From positions 1-26,895 of IMG/VR virus record IMGVR_UViG_3300006917_001358: 26,895 nt of DNA; one strand, written 5' to 3'. The notes below the pieces were generated by a model that worked only from the letters and a program-made list of their open reading frames with translations, was not told the DNA's origin and did not search any database. Made by a program: the position numbers and the translations under genes. Source of the stretch: a virus. Positions 19,049-25,335 of the stretch are shown here, piece by piece; the first letter of the stretch is position 1, and every line of letters begins with the position of its first letter.

Positions 19049-20035
19049 ATGAAAATCGAAAACATTATAAATGAGACAACCGCAGGGGCAACTGCATCAG
19101 GTTCAGTGGCAGCGGTGGCAAAGCCAATGGGCGAAACACAAAAGCGAGGCAAAATGGGACCAAAAGTCTCTGGTTTAGAACCAGCAGGCAAGGTCATGTT
19201 TGGCAAAGCAAAGAAGAAAGGCCCATATACAAATAGCATTAGCGAAAGTGCTATTAAAGAAGATGAACTATCTGAAGAGGATATGTTCTTAATGAGAGCC
19301 GAAAAGCCTAAGGTTTTTGGATTTATTCCTAAAGGCCAAAGTCGTGTAGACCACGAAGTTGAAATGGCACGTAGTGATTTAATACAAGCCATGAAAAATG
19401 CTAAAACAGTCTATGGATTAATTAAAGACCGTAGCGAAGATGAAGGTCTTGAGGGTTGGGTACAAGAAAAGATTATTAAGGCAGCAGATTATCTAAACAC
19501 TATCGCAGAATACCTAGAAGGTAAGAAGATGCAAGAAATGCAGGGTGGCGTCGTAGCCGCAGGTGGTGTTGGAGAAGGCATGGGATCAGGTTCTGTAGGT
19601 TATGACAATGCTAAAGCAATTGCATATGCAGCCAAAGATGGCACAAGTGCTGATGTTAAGTTAGGTGATGACACAGTAACATTAGAATATCCTGAAGCAC
19701 GTTTTGCATATGGTGTTTATAAGCAAGCCGTTAAAGACGGTCGTGTAGATGAAATCATTAAAGTATTCTCAGACCCTATCAAGTTCCACAAGATGATGAA
19801 GAAGATGGGCGATATGCTTTATCGTGACCGTAGTAAAGAAATGGCACAGGCTGCGGCACAACGTATTGGTCAACCAGGTATGATGGAAGGTGCTAAGGTT
19901 GATCGCATGGTACAACACATTAAGAAGTCTGAAATGAAAGCAGGCAAGAGTGCTGACAAAGCAGAAGATATTGCTTGGGCTACTGCAAACAAACGTGGTT
20001 ACTTAGACAATAAGAATAAAAAGAAGAAGGATTAA
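19049..20035 (+). CDS. Modular, probably virion-internal protein with capsid-targeting-like leader
   Basis: The 328-residue product begins MKIENIINE, ending in I-N-E at 7-9, then an Ala/Gly/Thr-rich linker and basic stretches. Further L/I-x-E tripeptides (I64-E66, L74-E76) flank a short acidic region. A helical module spans about 100-160 (MARSDLIQAMKNAKTVYGLI... GLEGWVQEKIIKAADYL). A second lies at about 185-262 (LGDDTVTLEYPEARFAYGVY). A basic C-terminal module (283-328) carries KKSEMKAGKSADKAEDIAWA and ends KNKKKKD. From memory these modules recur in marine T4-like phage proteins. The leader, basic tail and neighbouring polyprotein point to a DNA-associated protein packaged in the head; this is inference. 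Confidence 0.65.
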   Translation: MKIENIINETTAGATASGSVAAVAKPMGETQKRGKMGPKVSGLEPAGKVMFGKAKKKGPYTNSISESAIKEDELSEEDMFLMRAEKPKVFGFIPKGQSRVDHEVEMARSDLIQAMKNAKTVYGLIKDRSEDEGLEGWVQEKIIKAADYLNTIAEYLEGKKMQEMQGGVVAAGGVGEGMGSGSVGYDNAKAIAYAAKDGTSADVKLGDDTVTLEYPEARFAYGVYKQAVKDGRVDEIIKVFSDPIKFHKMMKKMGDMLYRDRSKEMAQAAAQRIGQPGMMEGAKVDRMVQHIKKSEMKAGKSADKAEDIAWATANKRGYLDNKNKKKKD

Positions 20036-20037
20036 TT

Positions 20038-22248
20038 ATGAGTTCTATCATCAAAGGTATAATGTCTGAGTTGAGCCACTCAAATAAATTTGATGAGGGC
20101 GCTAGGCTAAGCGACTCTTATTATATTCCTAGAATTATTGCCGGCGACTTTCCTAAAAATTCTGAAATAACAGTAAGTACCAAAAAACGAGAATCTAAAA
20201 CAGGTAAAACCGTTAGAGATTTTGGACTAAAAATTAACCCTGGATTCTTGCAGACAAAACTTTTTTATAAATTAGAAGATATTAAAACAGTAATTGATTT
20301 AGGTGATGATGTTAGAAACAGAGGACAATCAACCGCCGGTACTTTAGGGAGAGCAGCGGTCGGCGGCCTGACATTTGGAGTAGGAGGCGCGGTAGTAGGT
20401 GGCTTAACTGGAAAAAATGAGTTTGATGAATACGGGGTCTACGGGCTTGTTTTTAACGACGGTAAGAGGGCAAAAATTAAATTTCATAAAGATTCTATGT
20501 TAGGGGAGCAACTTAGTAACTTTCTTAATAAAAAAGTGGATTTGGGTTTCGGTGAGGTGCCTCAAAATAAGAGTAAAAAATCAAATAATGAACCACCAAA
20601 ACAACCCCAACAAACAATTAAAAAGACTACCAATACTGCCGATACAAACATTGCGCCAATCTCACCTACACCTGCAACATCTGCTACCCAAACACCAATA
20701 GCCGCAAATACTACAGTATCCTCACCAAATGTTAATACTGAACTACAAAAAAGATTGGCAGCACGTAAAGCAGGAAAGCCAGTGTACTCAGGTGGACTTG
20801 AAGAGGGTGAAGATAGACAAGCAGAATTAGAAATGGCATTACAAAAAGCCAGACAGATAACTAAACAAATCAAGTATGATGATACTGCTACAGATATTAT
20901 TGTACAAATTCAAATGCTTGCAGAAAAGTTCAATATTGATAAAGATTCACTTGAATCAGCAATTGATGATGTATATAATGCAAAGAATCAATTAGAATCA
21001 GCAGTATATGGATTAGATGAAGTATTTGAAGAGGCACTGCAACAATCACGTTGGGACGATGACGAAATGCTAGATGAGAATCTACGCAAGTGGTTCAAAG
21101 AGAAGTGGGTTCGCTTTGGTCCTGATGGTAAGATTCGTGGTGCTTGTGCTAGAGGTGATGATAGTGAAGGTAAGCCAAAGTGTTTGCCACAAAGTAAAGC
21201 ACATAGTCTAGGCAAGAAGGGTCGTGCAAGTGCTGCCGCACGTAAGCGTAGAGAAGATCCTAATCCAGAGCGTAGTGGCAAGGCTATCAATGTCAATACT
21301 AAGAAAAAGTCAAACGAAGCAGAGTTAGACGAAGCCTGTTGGAAAGGTTACCACAAAGAAGGTAACAAGAAAATGTTTGGCAAAACATATCCTAACTGTG
21401 TAAAAAATACTAACGAAGAACAAGAATTAGATGAAATCAACCGTAGAGGCTTTTTAAAAGGTTTGGGCGCAGCCGCACTAGGTGCTGCTGGAATGAAGGC
21501 ACAAGCACAGACTGATCAAGAGCAAGATTTGGGAGATGGATTTGTTTTAGTGACAATACCTTTTAGAGGCCACACACTCAAGGCAGTATTGGACAAACAA
21601 ACTAATACATATTACACCACTAACCGTAGAGCAGACGGTACAGGTGCTATTATTCGTAGCATGGCTCCTTATATTATGGTACGTGGTGATCAAGCATCCA
21701 CTGCTATGAACGTCGGACCTGCTACTTTGGCTGCGATGAAAAAAGCTGGTCTAGAAACAATGCAAGAAGGTGTGGCGGAAGAACAACTAGACGAAAAGTG
21801 TTGGGACACACATAAGCAAGTTGGTATGAAAAGTAAGGGCGGTAAAATGGTTCCTAACTGTGTGCCAAAAGAAAGCGTTGAAGAGGGTCATCAGCAATGT
21901 CCCGAATGCGGTGGCGCAATGTACGAAGCAGAAATGATGAATGAAAAGAAAGATGCTTGCTACTATAAAGTAAAGAGTCGTTATAAGGTATGGCCAAGTG
22001 CTTATGCTAGTGGCGCACTAGTTAAGTGCCGCAAGAAGGGTGCAAGTAACTGGGGCACTGGTGGTAAGAAAAACGAAGATACTGCATATGCAGGTGGTAT
22101 GGGACAAGGTGGCAATGCTGGACAAAGTTATCGTAAGTATAAAGTAAAACCATCAGGTATAGCACAGGGTATTAGTGAGACAGAAGCAGTCAATCGTAAC
22201 GACGGTGACGGTTGGCATTGGTATGACATAAAACCAGCAGGGAAATAA
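20038..22248 (+). CDS. Modular polyprotein with LDE-linkers (probable internal virion polyprotein)
   Basis: The 736-residue protein contains at least six parts. 1-170: beta-rich domain with a glycine zipper (GRAAVGGLTFGVGGAVVGG, 104-122). 180-250: Pro/Thr-rich linker. 254-345: acidic helices. 348-425: basic Cys-containing module, WFKEKWVRFGPDGKIRGACA onward, recalling DUF5872-like sequences. 433-455: CW...YPNCV mini-module. 467-575: domain preceded by a twin-arginine-like signal, NRRGFLKGLGAAALGAAG. 587-609: second CW...VPNCV mini-module. 612-736: CPECGG knuckle and KVWPSAYASGALVKCRKKGA module. L-x-E sites lie at most borders (256, 347, 432, 466, 586, 714), mostly in NEEQ-x-LDE contexts. The prohead protease of a T4-like phage would be expected to cut there; not proven. 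It starts 2 nt after the previous stop. Confidence 0.65.
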   Translation: MSSIIKGIMSELSHSNKFDEGARLSDSYYIPRIIAGDFPKNSEITVSTKKRESKTGKTVRDFGLKINPGFLQTKLFYKLEDIKTVIDLGDDVRNRGQSTAGTLGRAAVGGLTFGVGGAVVGGLTGKNEFDEYGVYGLVFNDGKRAKIKFHKDSMLGEQLSNFLNKKVDLGFGEVPQNKSKKSNNEPPKQPQQTIKKTTNTADTNIAPISPTPATSATQTPIAANTTVSSPNVNTELQKRLAARKAGKPVYSGGLEEGEDRQAELEMALQKARQITKQIKYDDTATDIIVQIQMLAEKFNIDKDSLESAIDDVYNAKNQLESAVYGLDEVFEEALQQSRWDDDEMLDENLRKWFKEKWVRFGPDGKIRGACARGDDSEGKPKCLPQSKAHSLGKKGRASAAARKRREDPNPERSGKAINVNTKKKSNEAELDEACWKGYHKEGNKKMFGKTYPNCVKNTNEEQELDEINRRGFLKGLGAAALGAAGMKAQAQTDQEQDLGDGFVLVTIPFRGHTLKAVLDKQTNTYYTTNRRADGTGAIIRSMAPYIMVRGDQASTAMNVGPATLAAMKKAGLETMQEGVAEEQLDEKCWDTHKQVGMKSKGGKMVPNCVPKESVEEGHQQCPECGGAMYEAEMMNEKKDACYYKVKSRYKVWPSAYASGALVKCRKKGASNWGTGGKKNEDTAYAGGMGQGGNAGQSYRKYKVKPSGIAQGISETEAVNRNDGDGWHWYDIKPAGK

Positions 22249-22249
22249 T

Positions 22250-22405
22250 ATGTTAAAAATAGTAACAGGTTTGGCTGTAGTAGGTCAAAAGAAACAAACA
22301 CTAACAGATGCTAAACCTAAAAAAGGTAATATGGTAACTAATGCAAAGCCAATTGATCCTAAGGTAGATCCTAGTGTTAAAATTAAAAAGGTATATCTTA
22401 AGTGA
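22250..22405 (+). CDS. Small basic protein, 51 residues
   Basis: A short frame starts at an ATG 1 nt after the polyprotein stop (TAATATG). The 51-residue product begins MLKIVTGLAVVGQKKQTLTD and ends KKVYLK, Lys/Val/Pro-rich. Its stop overlaps the GTG start of the next gene (GTGA), which supports translation. No family recognised. Confidence 0.6.
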   Translation: MLKIVTGLAVVGQKKQTLTDAKPKKGNMVTNAKPIDPKVDPSVKIKKVYLK

Positions 22406-22629
22406 GAGCCAGTGAGTTTATTATAGAAAATAAGGGTTTACCAATGCCCGGTACTTACGAACAAGAATACAATATGTTCAAAAGTAAAGGGCCTAGACGT
22501 ATTACTGCTATGACCAATGAAGAACAGATTGAAGAAAAATGGTCTAAGAAATATAAAAATAGTATAAATTGTAATAATCCAAAAGGTTTTAGTCAACGTG
22601 CCCATTGTCAGGGAAGAAAGAAGAAATGA
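22402..22629 (+). CDS. Small protein with leader plus Cys/Lys basic module
   Basis: The 75-residue product starts at a GTG within the GTGA overlap. It begins MRASEFIIE (I-x-E at 7-9) and contains NEEQIEE (39-45, another I-x-E). It ends in a basic module, KWSKKYKNSINCNNPKGFSQ (46-65) and then RAHCQGRKKK, which I recall as a recurrent C-terminal unit in aquatic T4-like phages. If cut at both sites, a 30-residue Lys/Cys peptide is released. The leader DNA is 16 of 19 identical to that of the kinase-like gene at 23756. Probably packaged in the head with DNA; inference. Confidence 0.65.
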   Translation: MRASEFIIENKGLPMPGTYEQEYNMFKSKGPRRITAMTNEEQIEEKWSKKYKNSINCNNPKGFSQRAHCQGRKKK

Positions 22630-22766
22630 CACATTTACAAGATGTAAATATGACATACTTTCAACATATGCGTAGGGCATTGACTATAGCAGGAATATTA
22701 ATTGTACACAGTGTTTTTCCAAACGTTTGGAAAACAAAAGCAACAGAATTATTATGTAGAGGATAA
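22626..22766 (+). CDS. 46-residue protein, DUF6356-like
   Basis: A short frame begins in an ATGA overlap with the previous gene and ends 1 nt before the Dps-like start. The product contains MTYFQHMRRALTIAGILIVH (9-28) and FPNVWKTKATELLCRG. This pattern (YFxHMxxAL... FPxVWxxKAxxLL) matches my memory of DUF6356, small proteins of phages and marine bacteria with unknown role. The central part is hydrophobic enough for membrane contact. The tight overlap supports translation. Confidence 0.65.
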   Translation: MTHLQDVNMTYFQHMRRALTIAGILIVHSVFPNVWKTKATELLCRG

Positions 22767-22767
22767 C

Positions 22768-23211
22768 ATGCTAGCAGAAGCATTAAAAACATTATTATCA
22801 ACAAGTTATGCGTTTGTAATTAAAGCGCAACACTTTCATTGGAACGTTGAGGGTCCTAACTTCCCGCAATACCATAAATTCTTCGGTGACATTTATGAAG
22901 AAGTATACGGTAATGCTATAGACCAAACAGCAGAATATATTAGAACACTAGATAGTTACACACCTGGTAGCATGCGTAGATTTAGTGAACTATCAGTGAT
23001 AGAAGAACAGCCTATGATTCCACGTGCTGAACTCATGTTACAAGAACTAGAAGTAGATAATCAAAAAGTTCTTGAATTACTTAACAACTGTTTTGAACAT
23101 GCTGAGGCAGAAAACAAGCAAGGTATCGCTAATTTTATTGCAGAGCGTTTAGATGCACATGAAAAGCATGGTTGGATGTTACGTAGCACACTTAAAAAAG
23201 CCAGAGCATGA
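22768..23211 (+). CDS. dps: Dps-like ferritin (DNA-protection / iron storage)
   Basis: The 147-residue product starts at an ATG preceded by AGAGGA; a longer upstream frame is only an overlap with the previous gene. It has the Dps four-helix pattern: HFHWNVEGPNF (22-32), H36, D41, YEE (43-45) and D52..AE56. Of the usual inter-subunit ferroxidase ligands, H24, H36, D52 and E56 appear kept. The Asp normally four residues after the second His is Gly here, with an Asp one place later. Dps oxidises Fe(II) with peroxide, stores iron and shields DNA. Its stop overlaps the heme oxygenase start (ATGA), tying iron release to storage. Confidence 0.85.
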   Translation: MLAEALKTLLSTSYAFVIKAQHFHWNVEGPNFPQYHKFFGDIYEEVYGNAIDQTAEYIRTLDSYTPGSMRRFSELSVIEEQPMIPRAELMLQELEVDNQKVLELLNNCFEHAEAENKQGIANFIAERLDAHEKHGWMLRSTLKKARA

Positions 23212-23744
23212 CAATACTAAGAGAAGCAACACACGATAAGCATCGTGAAGTAGAAGCACTGCCTATGATTCAGGCTATAATGAAGGGTCCTACTTTTGAC
23301 CAATATGTCTCATATCTATATGAATTAAAAGAAATTTATAGAGTGATAGAGTTGGCTGCGAGAGGTGCAGATATTCTTAAAGATTTACCTGGCATAGAAC
23401 GCTATGATGCTATAACCGAAGATTTAAATGATTTAAACAATAACTATACAAGAGAGTTGATGCCCGGCACTAAAAAGTATATAGATCATATATGGGCAAC
23501 AGCGTATCATAATCCACATTTATTATTAGCACATGTCTATGTAAGACATATGGGCGATTTATATGGTGGTAAGTTAATGGCTAGAGTAGTCCCGGGTGCA
23601 GGCAGAGCATATAAATTTGAAGATAGACCCGGTATCATCAAAGCATTCAATGAGAAACTAACAATGGATTTGGCTGATGAGGCCAATCTAGCATTTGACT
23701 ATTTCATACAGATTTTTGACGAGTTGTATAAGAGTCAAAACTAA
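23208..23744 (+). CDS. ho1: Heme oxygenase (HO-1 type)
   Basis: The 178-residue enzyme has the alpha-helical heme oxygenase fold. It carries the N-terminal LREATHDKHREVEAL (4-18, proximal His at 12) and the distal-helix motif GDLYGGK (116-122), matching GDLSGGQ of HO-1, including the conserved Asp. It cleaves heme to biliverdin, CO and Fe(II). In cyanophages ho1 accompanies bilin reductases (pebS, pcyA); none is visible here, so iron release from host heme is a better guess. It is co-translated with the Dps-like gene. Its LRE at the N-terminus is part of the enzyme family's normal sequence, not a leader. Confidence 0.88.
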   Translation: MTILREATHDKHREVEALPMIQAIMKGPTFDQYVSYLYELKEIYRVIELAARGADILKDLPGIERYDAITEDLNDLNNNYTRELMPGTKKYIDHIWATAYHNPHLLLAHVYVRHMGDLYGGKLMARVVPGAGRAYKFEDRPGIIKAFNEKLTMDLADEANLAFDYFIQIFDELYKSQN

Positions 23745-23755: not shown

Positions 23756-24958
23756 ATGAGAGCCAGCGAATTTACCAGTAAATTAAATGAGAGCATGCTG
23801 ATTACAGATGTTCCCAATGAGGATTGGCTGGCTGGAAAAGTTGAATACGCAAAAAGCAGAGGTCGTGATAGTTATGGTGTACCATATATGGGATCAACAA
23901 CTGGTATTGTAAGACCTGAACCTAAACTACCTGTGAGTCTTTTAAAAAGACTACCTGGCATGCGCGGTGAACAACGCAATGTCAGAGAAAAAGACTTAGA
24001 AGCCATAATGAAAATAATGAAAGACACAGGTAAACTTCCATTAAGGCAAAATGGTCAAGAATATGCACCCTTCGTTATGGTGGCCTATAATGGCGAAGCC
24101 TGGGTCAATGAAGGTAATCATCGTATCATGGCTGCGGCTGCATTAGGATGGGACGAATTACCAGTAGAGTTAAAGTATTTTGATGGTGGTGAACGTGTTA
24201 AATCAGGTCCATTATACCCAGATAAGATAGGCTTAACACATCCTAAACCCGGCTCTACTGTTGTAATTAATGAAGTAGATGTAGACGAAGCAGAATCAGG
24301 AACTCCTGAGGCAAAGAAAATCACACAACAACTTAAGGATGCTGGGTATAAACAATTAGGTAGTGGTGCCGACGCAACCGTGTGGAGTAAGGATGAGGGG
24401 CAAGTGATAAAGGTCATTATGCCTGATAGTAAAGATATTACACAAGCCGCATATGTATTTAAAAAGTTCTATGAGTTTTGCACACAACATAAAGACTTAG
24501 CATGCTTACCAAAATTTATACCGATACAAGGTAGAGACTATGTAGAATTTAAATTAGGTAATAAGAATTACATACAGGTTAGTATGGAGCAACTGTATCC
24601 TATTAAAGAAGATAGTTTTGCACAGGGTATAGTTTGGTTCTTTAGTGATTATGTATCCAATGGTGTTAAGTGGGACAAAGTTGATGATTTGTTAGGATAC
24701 CCGCAAACATGGTATGAGTTCCATACTAATAAGGCAAATCAGTTTGCAGAAAAATGGCAAAATTTATCAATGATAAAAGGTAATGAAAGAAAACATTCAG
24801 AGATGCAACTACTATACACAGTAATGGAATTGTTATATAGAACAGGTAAGATTAATAAAATGTTTTGGGACTTGCATACTGACAATGCTATGCAACGTAA
24901 AGATGGTACTATAGTTATCATTGATCCATGGTTTGAAAGATATGAGGGAACATTATGA
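23756..24958 (+). CDS. ParB-like / protein-kinase-like fusion with internal-protein leader
   Basis: The 400-residue product begins MRASEFTSKLNE (L-N-E at 10-12). Residues 75-145 resemble a ParB/sulfiredoxin-like fold with NEGNHRIMAAAALGW (118-132). A V-V-I-N-E tripeptide site (171-173) lies in the linker. Residues 195-400 look like a protein/aminoglycoside-kinase fold: Gly-rich loop LGSGADATVW (201-210), possible ATP Lys K219, catalytic loop WDLHTDNAM (371-379) and metal-binding D390 in IIDPW. T4 packages Alt and T7 makes the gp0.7 kinase, both acting on host proteins; a packaged kinase would be comparable. Activity and targets are inferred. The start lies 5 nt after a late-type box. Confidence 0.7.
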   Translation: MRASEFTSKLNESMLITDVPNEDWLAGKVEYAKSRGRDSYGVPYMGSTTGIVRPEPKLPVSLLKRLPGMRGEQRNVREKDLEAIMKIMKDTGKLPLRQNGQEYAPFVMVAYNGEAWVNEGNHRIMAAAALGWDELPVELKYFDGGERVKSGPLYPDKIGLTHPKPGSTVVINEVDVDEAESGTPEAKKITQQLKDAGYKQLGSGADATVWSKDEGQVIKVIMPDSKDITQAAYVFKKFYEFCTQHKDLACLPKFIPIQGRDYVEFKLGNKNYIQVSMEQLYPIKEDSFAQGIVWFFSDYVSNGVKWDKVDDLLGYPQTWYEFHTNKANQFAEKWQNLSMIKGNERKHSEMQLLYTVMELLYRTGKINKMFWDLHTDNAMQRKDGTIVIIDPWFERYEGTL

Positions 24959-25335
24959 AAATTAGCGAGTTATTAAGAGAAGGCAAATTTGATCCTGACT
25001 TTGACGATCAGGAAGAAGTTCCTGCTGATCCAGACAAAGATAAGGTACCACACTTAGTCATGCAACTTAGAAAAGCATTTGACGTAGATGGTAATTATCC
25101 TATACTCTTTAGAGACAATACTAAAGCAAAATTGTCTATGGATGAGATTGTAGGATTCTTAAAAACATATATGAGTCTTAAACCATTAGAAAGAGAACAG
25201 ATGCAAGATATGGCTGCTAATAGTAAAAAAGATTTCATGCAGTCTATAACTAGTTTTAAGAAAACTATGGCACCTGTGCAGAAAATAAAAGGTGATAGAT
25301 ACATGTCACACTTTGCAGGAGATTTAGACAAATGA
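24955..25335 (+). CDS. Small acidic/helical protein with internal-protein leader
   Basis: The 126-residue product begins MKISELLREGKF, with L-R-E at 7-9, the same place as in two other leader genes in this window. The rest is acidic near the N-terminus (DPDFDDQEEVPADPDKDK) and then helical and basic. I do not recognise the family. It starts in an ATGA overlap with the kinase-like gene, with GAGGGA upstream, and its stop overlaps the nuclease start. It is a candidate virion-internal protein. Confidence 0.65.
   Translation: MKISELLREGKFDPDFDDQEEVPADPDKDKVPHLVMQLRKAFDVDGNYPILFRDNTKAKLSMDEIVGFLKTYMSLKPLEREQMQDMAANSKKDFMQSITSFKKTMAPVQKIKGDRYMSHFAGDLDK

Follow-up and report, generated by a model that had tools for sequence, protein, structure and literature searches.

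A probable prohead-processed string of interchangeable mini-peptides in a T4-like aquatic phage

Results

The locus and its genes

The window analysed here is a complete IMG/VR record of 26,895 bases, and all positions given below refer to this window. Judging from its modules and neighbouring genes, we infer that it comes from the genome of an aquatic, T4-like phage, of which it is a fragment. The following features were distinguished, where a slash marks a proposed cut.

19049-20035, plus strand: upstream protein with targeting-like start MKIENIINE/ and further [LIVMF]xE-bounded segments
20038-22248, plus strand: P0001, candidate modular polyprotein with modules common to 369 phage records
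20038-20547, plus strand: N-terminal region A (residues 1-170), weak match to PHROG 888
20806-21078, plus strand: helical module B (residues 257-347), ending in MLDE/, homologues in loci L150, L091, L101 and L075
21070-21078, plus strand: LDE site ahead of module C
21079-21333, plus strand: module C (NLRKWFKEKW..), basic, two Cys
21325-21333, plus strand: LDE site ahead of the first module D
21334-21435, plus strand: module D, copy 1 (CWKGYHKEGNKKMFGKTYPNCV), ending in NEEQELDE/
21436-21795, plus strand: module E, INRRGFLKGLGAAALGAAGMKAQA/Q straight after LDE/, with a DLGDGFVL domain behind it and EEQLDE/ at its end
21796-21885, plus strand: module D, copy 2 (KCWDTHKQVGMKSKGGKMVPNCV)
21886-21945, plus strand: CPECGG unit, ending in MMNE/
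21946-22077, plus strand: module F (KKDACYYKVKSRYKVWPSAYASGALVKCRKKGASNWG), predicted to form three short helices, two Cys
22402-22629, plus strand: companion 75-residue protein with start VRASEFIIE/, linker NEEQIEE/ and module H (KWSKKYKNSINCNNPKGFSQRAHCQGRKKK)
23756-24958, plus strand: kinase-like protein with N-terminus MRASEFTSKLNE/, match to the PHROG 15752 kinase (E = 5e-12)
24955-25335, plus strand: 126-residue protein with N-terminus MKISELLRE/

P0001 is an open reading frame (ORF) with an ATG start that encodes 736 residues. All modules and linkers that a first-pass annotation had named in this ORF were located. The CW..PNCV modules lie at residues 433-466 and 587-616, the WFKEKW module starts at residue 348, the CPECGG unit covers approximately residues 617-636, and the DACYYK..VWPSAY..NWG unit corresponds to residues 637-680. 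The linkers are MLDE/N (345-347), NEAELDE/A (430-432), NEEQELDE/I (464-466) and AEEQLDE/K (584-586), and the matching linker NEEQIEE/K precedes the basic module in ORF 22402-22629, which has a GTG start. The unit previously described as a membrane signal is probably a signal of the twin-arginine (Tat) type, INRRGFLKGLGAAALGAAGMKAQA, whose match to Pfam TAT_signal (E = 5e-4) was just under the cut-off. P0001 matched PHROG 727 (E = 1.7e-47), with modules C, D and F present and module G absent. The N-terminus of P0001 itself is not a clear or canonical capsid-targeting sequence; region A starts with MSSIIKGIMSE/LSHSNKFDE/, in which MSE-11 and FDE-20 are possible early sites where a targeting sequence would end.

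Several neighbouring genes may belong to the same class of proteins. By their sequences, the product of 19049-20035 is probably a further head-internal protein and that of 24955-25335 is probably head-internal cargo. Probable head-internal cargo is also encoded at 23756-24958; this protein combines ParB-like and kinase-like matches with an MRASEF..LNE/ start, and parallels the virion-detected kinase of phage S-CREM2. A 51-residue ORF at 22250-22405 and ORF 22402 share four bases (GTGA) at the GTG start of the latter, which suggests translational coupling. Next to the head-protein cluster, positions 22702-23744 encode a compact pair, first a Dps/ferritin-like and then a haem-oxygenase-like protein. 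The late-promoter-like sequence ATAAATA was not in excess in the window (11 occurrences vs 15.2 expected).

Cut-like sites in P0001

The first-pass annotation had regarded the number of L/I-x-E motifs in P0001 as ordinary, and their linker context and position just before each module as special. Both statements held. The raw count of [LI]xE (9 observed vs 5.2 expected) is unremarkable because P = 0.08, and it was dropped as evidence. The tripeptide LDE, however, occurred 5 times vs 0.18 expected (a count reached in 0 of 5000 shuffles), and the border motif was far above chance in homologues, as detailed below. For four of these five LDEs, the Glu directly precedes a module start (NLRKWF, ACWKGY, INRRGF and KCWDTH), and module F starts after MNE/. 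The broader motif [LIVMF]xE was found 21 times vs 10.5 expected (0 of 2000 shuffles). Some sites, such as LGE-157 and LAE-296, fall within putative domains and count against a cleavage model.

Module families, shuffling and borders

Module families were collected from approximately 170 viral loci, and profiles were built from the viral-contig loci. Modules C, D and F were found in 369 phage records, almost all of T4-like cyanophages. Two extra families were found, G (Pfam DUF6321) and H (in window ORF 22402), and the five families C, D, F, G and H are mutually unrelated. Module E, searched with a single query, gave only a weak result of eight loci.

The first-pass annotation had asked whether homologues shuffle their modules but keep the linkers. 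We found 46 distinct module orders, in which each of the five families follows at least four upstream module kinds. After redundant border contexts had been thinned out (no pair above 50% identity across 14 residues), [LIVMF]xE was present at most six residues upstream of the core in 55 of 65 cases for C (85%), 42 of 49 for D (86%), 38 of 45 for F (84%), 19 of 24 for G (79%) and 25 of 25 for H (100%). The same motif was found in only 25-30% of composition-preserving shuffles of these residues (z 6.6-10.7), and in 21-37% of cases downstream of the modules. The control motifs [LIVMF]xD, [LIVMF]x[KR], [LIVMF]E and [LIVMF]xxE were mostly near expectation, with the exception of [LIVMF]xxE, which showed a mild excess ahead of F (z = 3.8) and of H (z = 2.2).

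Hence, a hydrophobic-x-Glu site is kept at the borders, but the motif is looser than the strict L/I-x-E that had been proposed. The strict form occupied 50-66% of module borders, compared to 79-100% with V, M and F allowed; roughly one-third to one-half of the borders had V, M or F at P3 instead of the L or I of the T4 motif. Over 179 sites, P3 was mainly L (0.49), V (0.25) or I (0.20), P2 was mixed, and P1' was K, N, D, G or A. Among C modules that are 97-99% alike, the upstream sequences are unrelated, yet the site is kept (LDE, MNE, ISE, LEE, INE, LKE); examples are EMLDE/N, KNLDE/D, DGMNE/D, GVISE/N, NSINE/D and PELKE/D. Module G of marine T4-like phages has an internal LNE, which counts against the model.

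Other repeated arrangements were noticed in the loci. A 1055-residue protein (L284:3045-6209) repeats QGVAE/G between different domains (GNAT-like, DnaJ zinc-like, and a Tat signal together with a TonB C-terminal domain); across the collected loci, QGVAE was counted 97 times, spread over 56 proteins. In S-RS29 (L002:3605-5119), a DUF3008-like segment (KSKAQQRFFGMVRAAQKGE) serves as an additional module; DUF3008 is a small protein family of bacteria. A cellular origin of module F was considered and rejected, as its 16 genome matches are all metagenome-assembled, nearly all marine and likely phage contigs.

Predicted structure and composition

Module C was predicted to fold from its second residue into a compact helix-strand-strand-strand-helix (pLDDT 79, pTM 0.60), and module F into three short helices (pLDDT 78, pTM 0.48). 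Foldseek searches of modules F and C against the PDB gave no usable match, and a PDB sequence search returned nothing. Module cores contain two cysteines on average in C, D, F and H and 1.5 in G, and they are net basic (+5 to +19). This composition suggests peptides that may contact DNA or be redox-stabilised.

Stand-alone modules in roseophage-type loci

In the complete 58-kb genome of roseophage CRP-7, G, F and C are three adjacent genes of 84, 47 and 80 residues, which adjoin the large terminase gene. Among 81 loci of this type (CRP-7 and 80 viral loci), 45 hold G, F and C as separate ORFs, none shows a fusion of two modules, and only one has an upstream site before the C gene. A prohead protease of the S77 (gp21) type had no match in the complete CRP-7 genome, or in ten CRP-7-type contigs searched, which may be fragments. 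Fused versions in S-SCSM1, S-SCSM2R and Bellamy also lie just upstream of the large terminase. So a module encoded by its own gene works as a small protein by itself, whereas a fused module has a cut-like site ahead of it.

Targeting-like N-termini and the prohead protease

In T4, the protease gp21 cuts after L/I-X-E, and internal proteins carry capsid-targeting sequences of 10-19 residues and are ejected (PMC9026906). IPII and IPIII of T4 both start with MKTYQEFIAE. We found modules fused directly to similar N-termini of the pattern M[KR]xxEF[IV]xE/, for instance MRSKEFISE/KWS, MRAEEFVSE/KWS, MRAEEFITE/DLRKWF, MRASEIITE/KCW and MKSTEFITETIE/ETAAW. The targeting-like pattern was present in 40 of 210 module proteins, 90 of 1730 other ORFs and 1 of 1516 internal windows. 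A targeting-like sequence starts ORF 22402 (VRASEFIIE/) and many homologues, and module H begins identically after an N-terminal targeting peptide and after the internal linkers EEQIEE/ and EDQLDE/.

An S77 protease was encoded in all ten module-bearing T4-like phage genomes examined, in all five contigs of more than 190 kb in the first set, and in one contig of 285 kb. There was no S77 match in a 209-kb contig carrying such module proteins, nor within the 26,895-base window, which is a genome fragment. The capsid proteins of module-bearing phages have LSE/A, LTE/A, LNE/T or LTE/T at the expected maturation site.

Evidence from virions

In S-CREM2 gp160 (128342-129235), modules C, D and F stand behind LSE/, LEE/ and ISE/, respectively. 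This protein was detected by mass spectrometry in CsCl-purified virions with seven unique peptides and 13.1% coverage, in which termini were not resolved (PMC10665884, Table 3); its authors consider carry-over of non-virion proteins possible (PMC10665884). S-SCSM1_29 is deposited as a 'virion protein', and the paper on the S-SCSM1 genome reports virion mass spectrometry. The published data on gp160 and the annotation of S-SCSM1_29 support the presence of module proteins in virions.

The motif F[LIMV]xE occurred in the first 22 residues of 4 of the 19 virion-detected non-tail proteins of S-CREM2, compared to none of 113 undetected proteins (P = 3e-4). N-termini of this general FLxE kind are found in gp6, gp12, gp13, gp14, gp136 and gp154. 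The virion-detected gp12, gp14 and gp6 (L177), which are annotated as a Cas9-like nuclease, an APH-like kinase and a SAM hydrolase and carry targeting-like FMAE, FLTE and FLEE N-termini, are likely head-internal ejected enzymes. Residues 21-45 of gp160 (L003:3584-4477) and L178 gp145 share AAGATGFTGAAAPEGPVAGYDPLMG, which resembles the N-terminus of the mature major capsid protein, AVGADGFTGAAAPGGPNAGFDPVM, and also occurs in small ORFs of L063 and L007. It is possibly a capsid-protein mimic for targeting.

Twin-arginine units

All 15 Tat units (RRGF..) are located 2-6 residues after [LIV]xE, at ORF residues 13 to 916. Several contain an AxA site (AQA in the window; AKA, AMA, AFA or ANA in others). 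The window unit consists of RRGFLKG, an Ala/Gly-rich stretch and AQA, and would be N-terminal solely after the proposed cut. Recognised domains behind the Tat signal are an M48 peptidase (L092, L289) and a TonB C-terminal domain (L284), which are types that act in the periplasm. The whole plan is displayed in 380 residues by L282, which reads MKANEFLTE/, H, D-like, LDE/, Tat unit and, further on, G. Because these units stand straight after sites deep inside proteins, cleavage would unmask an export signal.

Discussion

At the level of sequence, the modules are small, mostly basic and usually contain two cysteines; each starts after hydrophobic-x-Glu, and they can be swapped or stand alone. We consider it likely that P0001 is a polyprotein which a T4-like aquatic phage processes in its prohead, yielding interchangeable mini-peptides. 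The precursor would enter the prohead core, where the S77 protease of the phage would cut after the Glu of the hydrophobic-x-Glu sites. The freed peptides would remain beside the DNA in the head and be ejected into the host like the internal proteins of T4, on which the steps after cutting are modelled. Since the protease would split the chain inside the new particle, a single gene could stock it with many tiny proteins for the next host. The polyprotein reading of the first-pass annotation is therefore mostly borne out, in so far as modules are shuffled and the site is kept behind unrelated upstream sequence; the contrast with single genes and the Tat units extend it. We found no earlier polyprotein model for these proteins in the literature searched.

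The strongest alternative is an ordinary multidomain virion protein that stays whole, in which acidic LxE segments are flexible linkers or N-caps travelling with the domains. Glu-rich linkers are indeed widespread among the module proteins, cleavage has yet to be seen, and the module families are annotated just as structural, virion or hypothetical proteins. Yet shuffling the linkers at constant composition abolishes the signal, five unrelated families and linker-less targeting-like N-termini share one register, and the site is missing from stand-alone homologues. Moreover, a Tat signal as deep as residue 468 or 916 would be hard to explain in an uncut protein. We therefore regard this explanation as unlikely. 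Even less probable is a scaffold or core protein that is cut at LxE and whose fragments are expelled as waste before DNA packaging, in the manner of T4 gp22 and gp67, whose multiple cleavage fragments mostly leave the head (PMC9026906). Against it speak the strong conservation of the modules, their occurrence as stand-alone proteins in other phages and the recovery of gp160 peptides from mature S-CREM2 virions, although the distinction is not absolute since T4 keeps some core fragments. Cleavage outside the head by some other glutamyl protease, of host or phage origin, with products acting in the infected cell, would fit a window that shows the motif without the enzyme. It is very improbable, however, given that each of the ten complete T4-like genomes tested also encodes S77, that the N-termini look like capsid-targeting sequences, and that virions contain a related protein.

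Under the polyprotein model, the cut would give units with a Tat signal a free N-terminus and, as a weaker step, the host Tat system might export them. Capsid maturation might thus double as an unmasking step, in which the cut frees the Tat signal and the ejected cargo (the M48 peptidase, the TonB C-terminal domain and other domains) is exported to the periplasm; we regard this extension, cargo included, as tentative, and somewhat doubtful. If true, it would be a two-stage delivery, from virion to host cell and from there to the host periplasm.

T4-like cyanophages are among the commonest viruses of aquatic habitats. The model would turn cyanophage module proteins now filed as unknown into named predicted peptides with predicted N-termini. 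It would extend T4 head maturation from propeptide removal to multiple cargo products per gene, built of interchangeable cassettes, and offers a simple rule, [LIV]xE plus a module, for spotting ejected phage proteins in metagenomes.

By their modules, direct homologues are found in the cyanophage T4-GC 119 family (Syn9 gp114, P-SSM2_123, S-E7, S-SCSM1; DUF6321, PHROG 727), which is annotated as 'structural/virion' or of unknown function, and for which the literature searched holds no processing model. The inner-body and ejection proteins of phiKZ and SPN3US (S80 protease) likewise include many head proteins cut after Glu at a short motif. There, however, processing is mainly propeptide removal at another motif (S/A-x-E in phiKZ), and shuffled peptide strings are not described in the literature searched. 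T4 gp22 and gp67 share with P0001 the proposed plan of one precursor yielding several gp21-type fragments, of which some are kept in the head; their fragments are mostly waste, whereas the pieces described here are conserved modules that are separate genes elsewhere. A further parallel is provided by IPI-IPIII and Alt of T4, in which a targeting sequence is followed by cargo and cut by gp21. The M[KR]..EFI.E/ peptide, the L/I-x-E cut, the small basic head-internal cargo and likely ejection appear to be shared, but T4 makes one such protein per gene, whereas here up to five or more interchangeable modules each have a putative site of their own.
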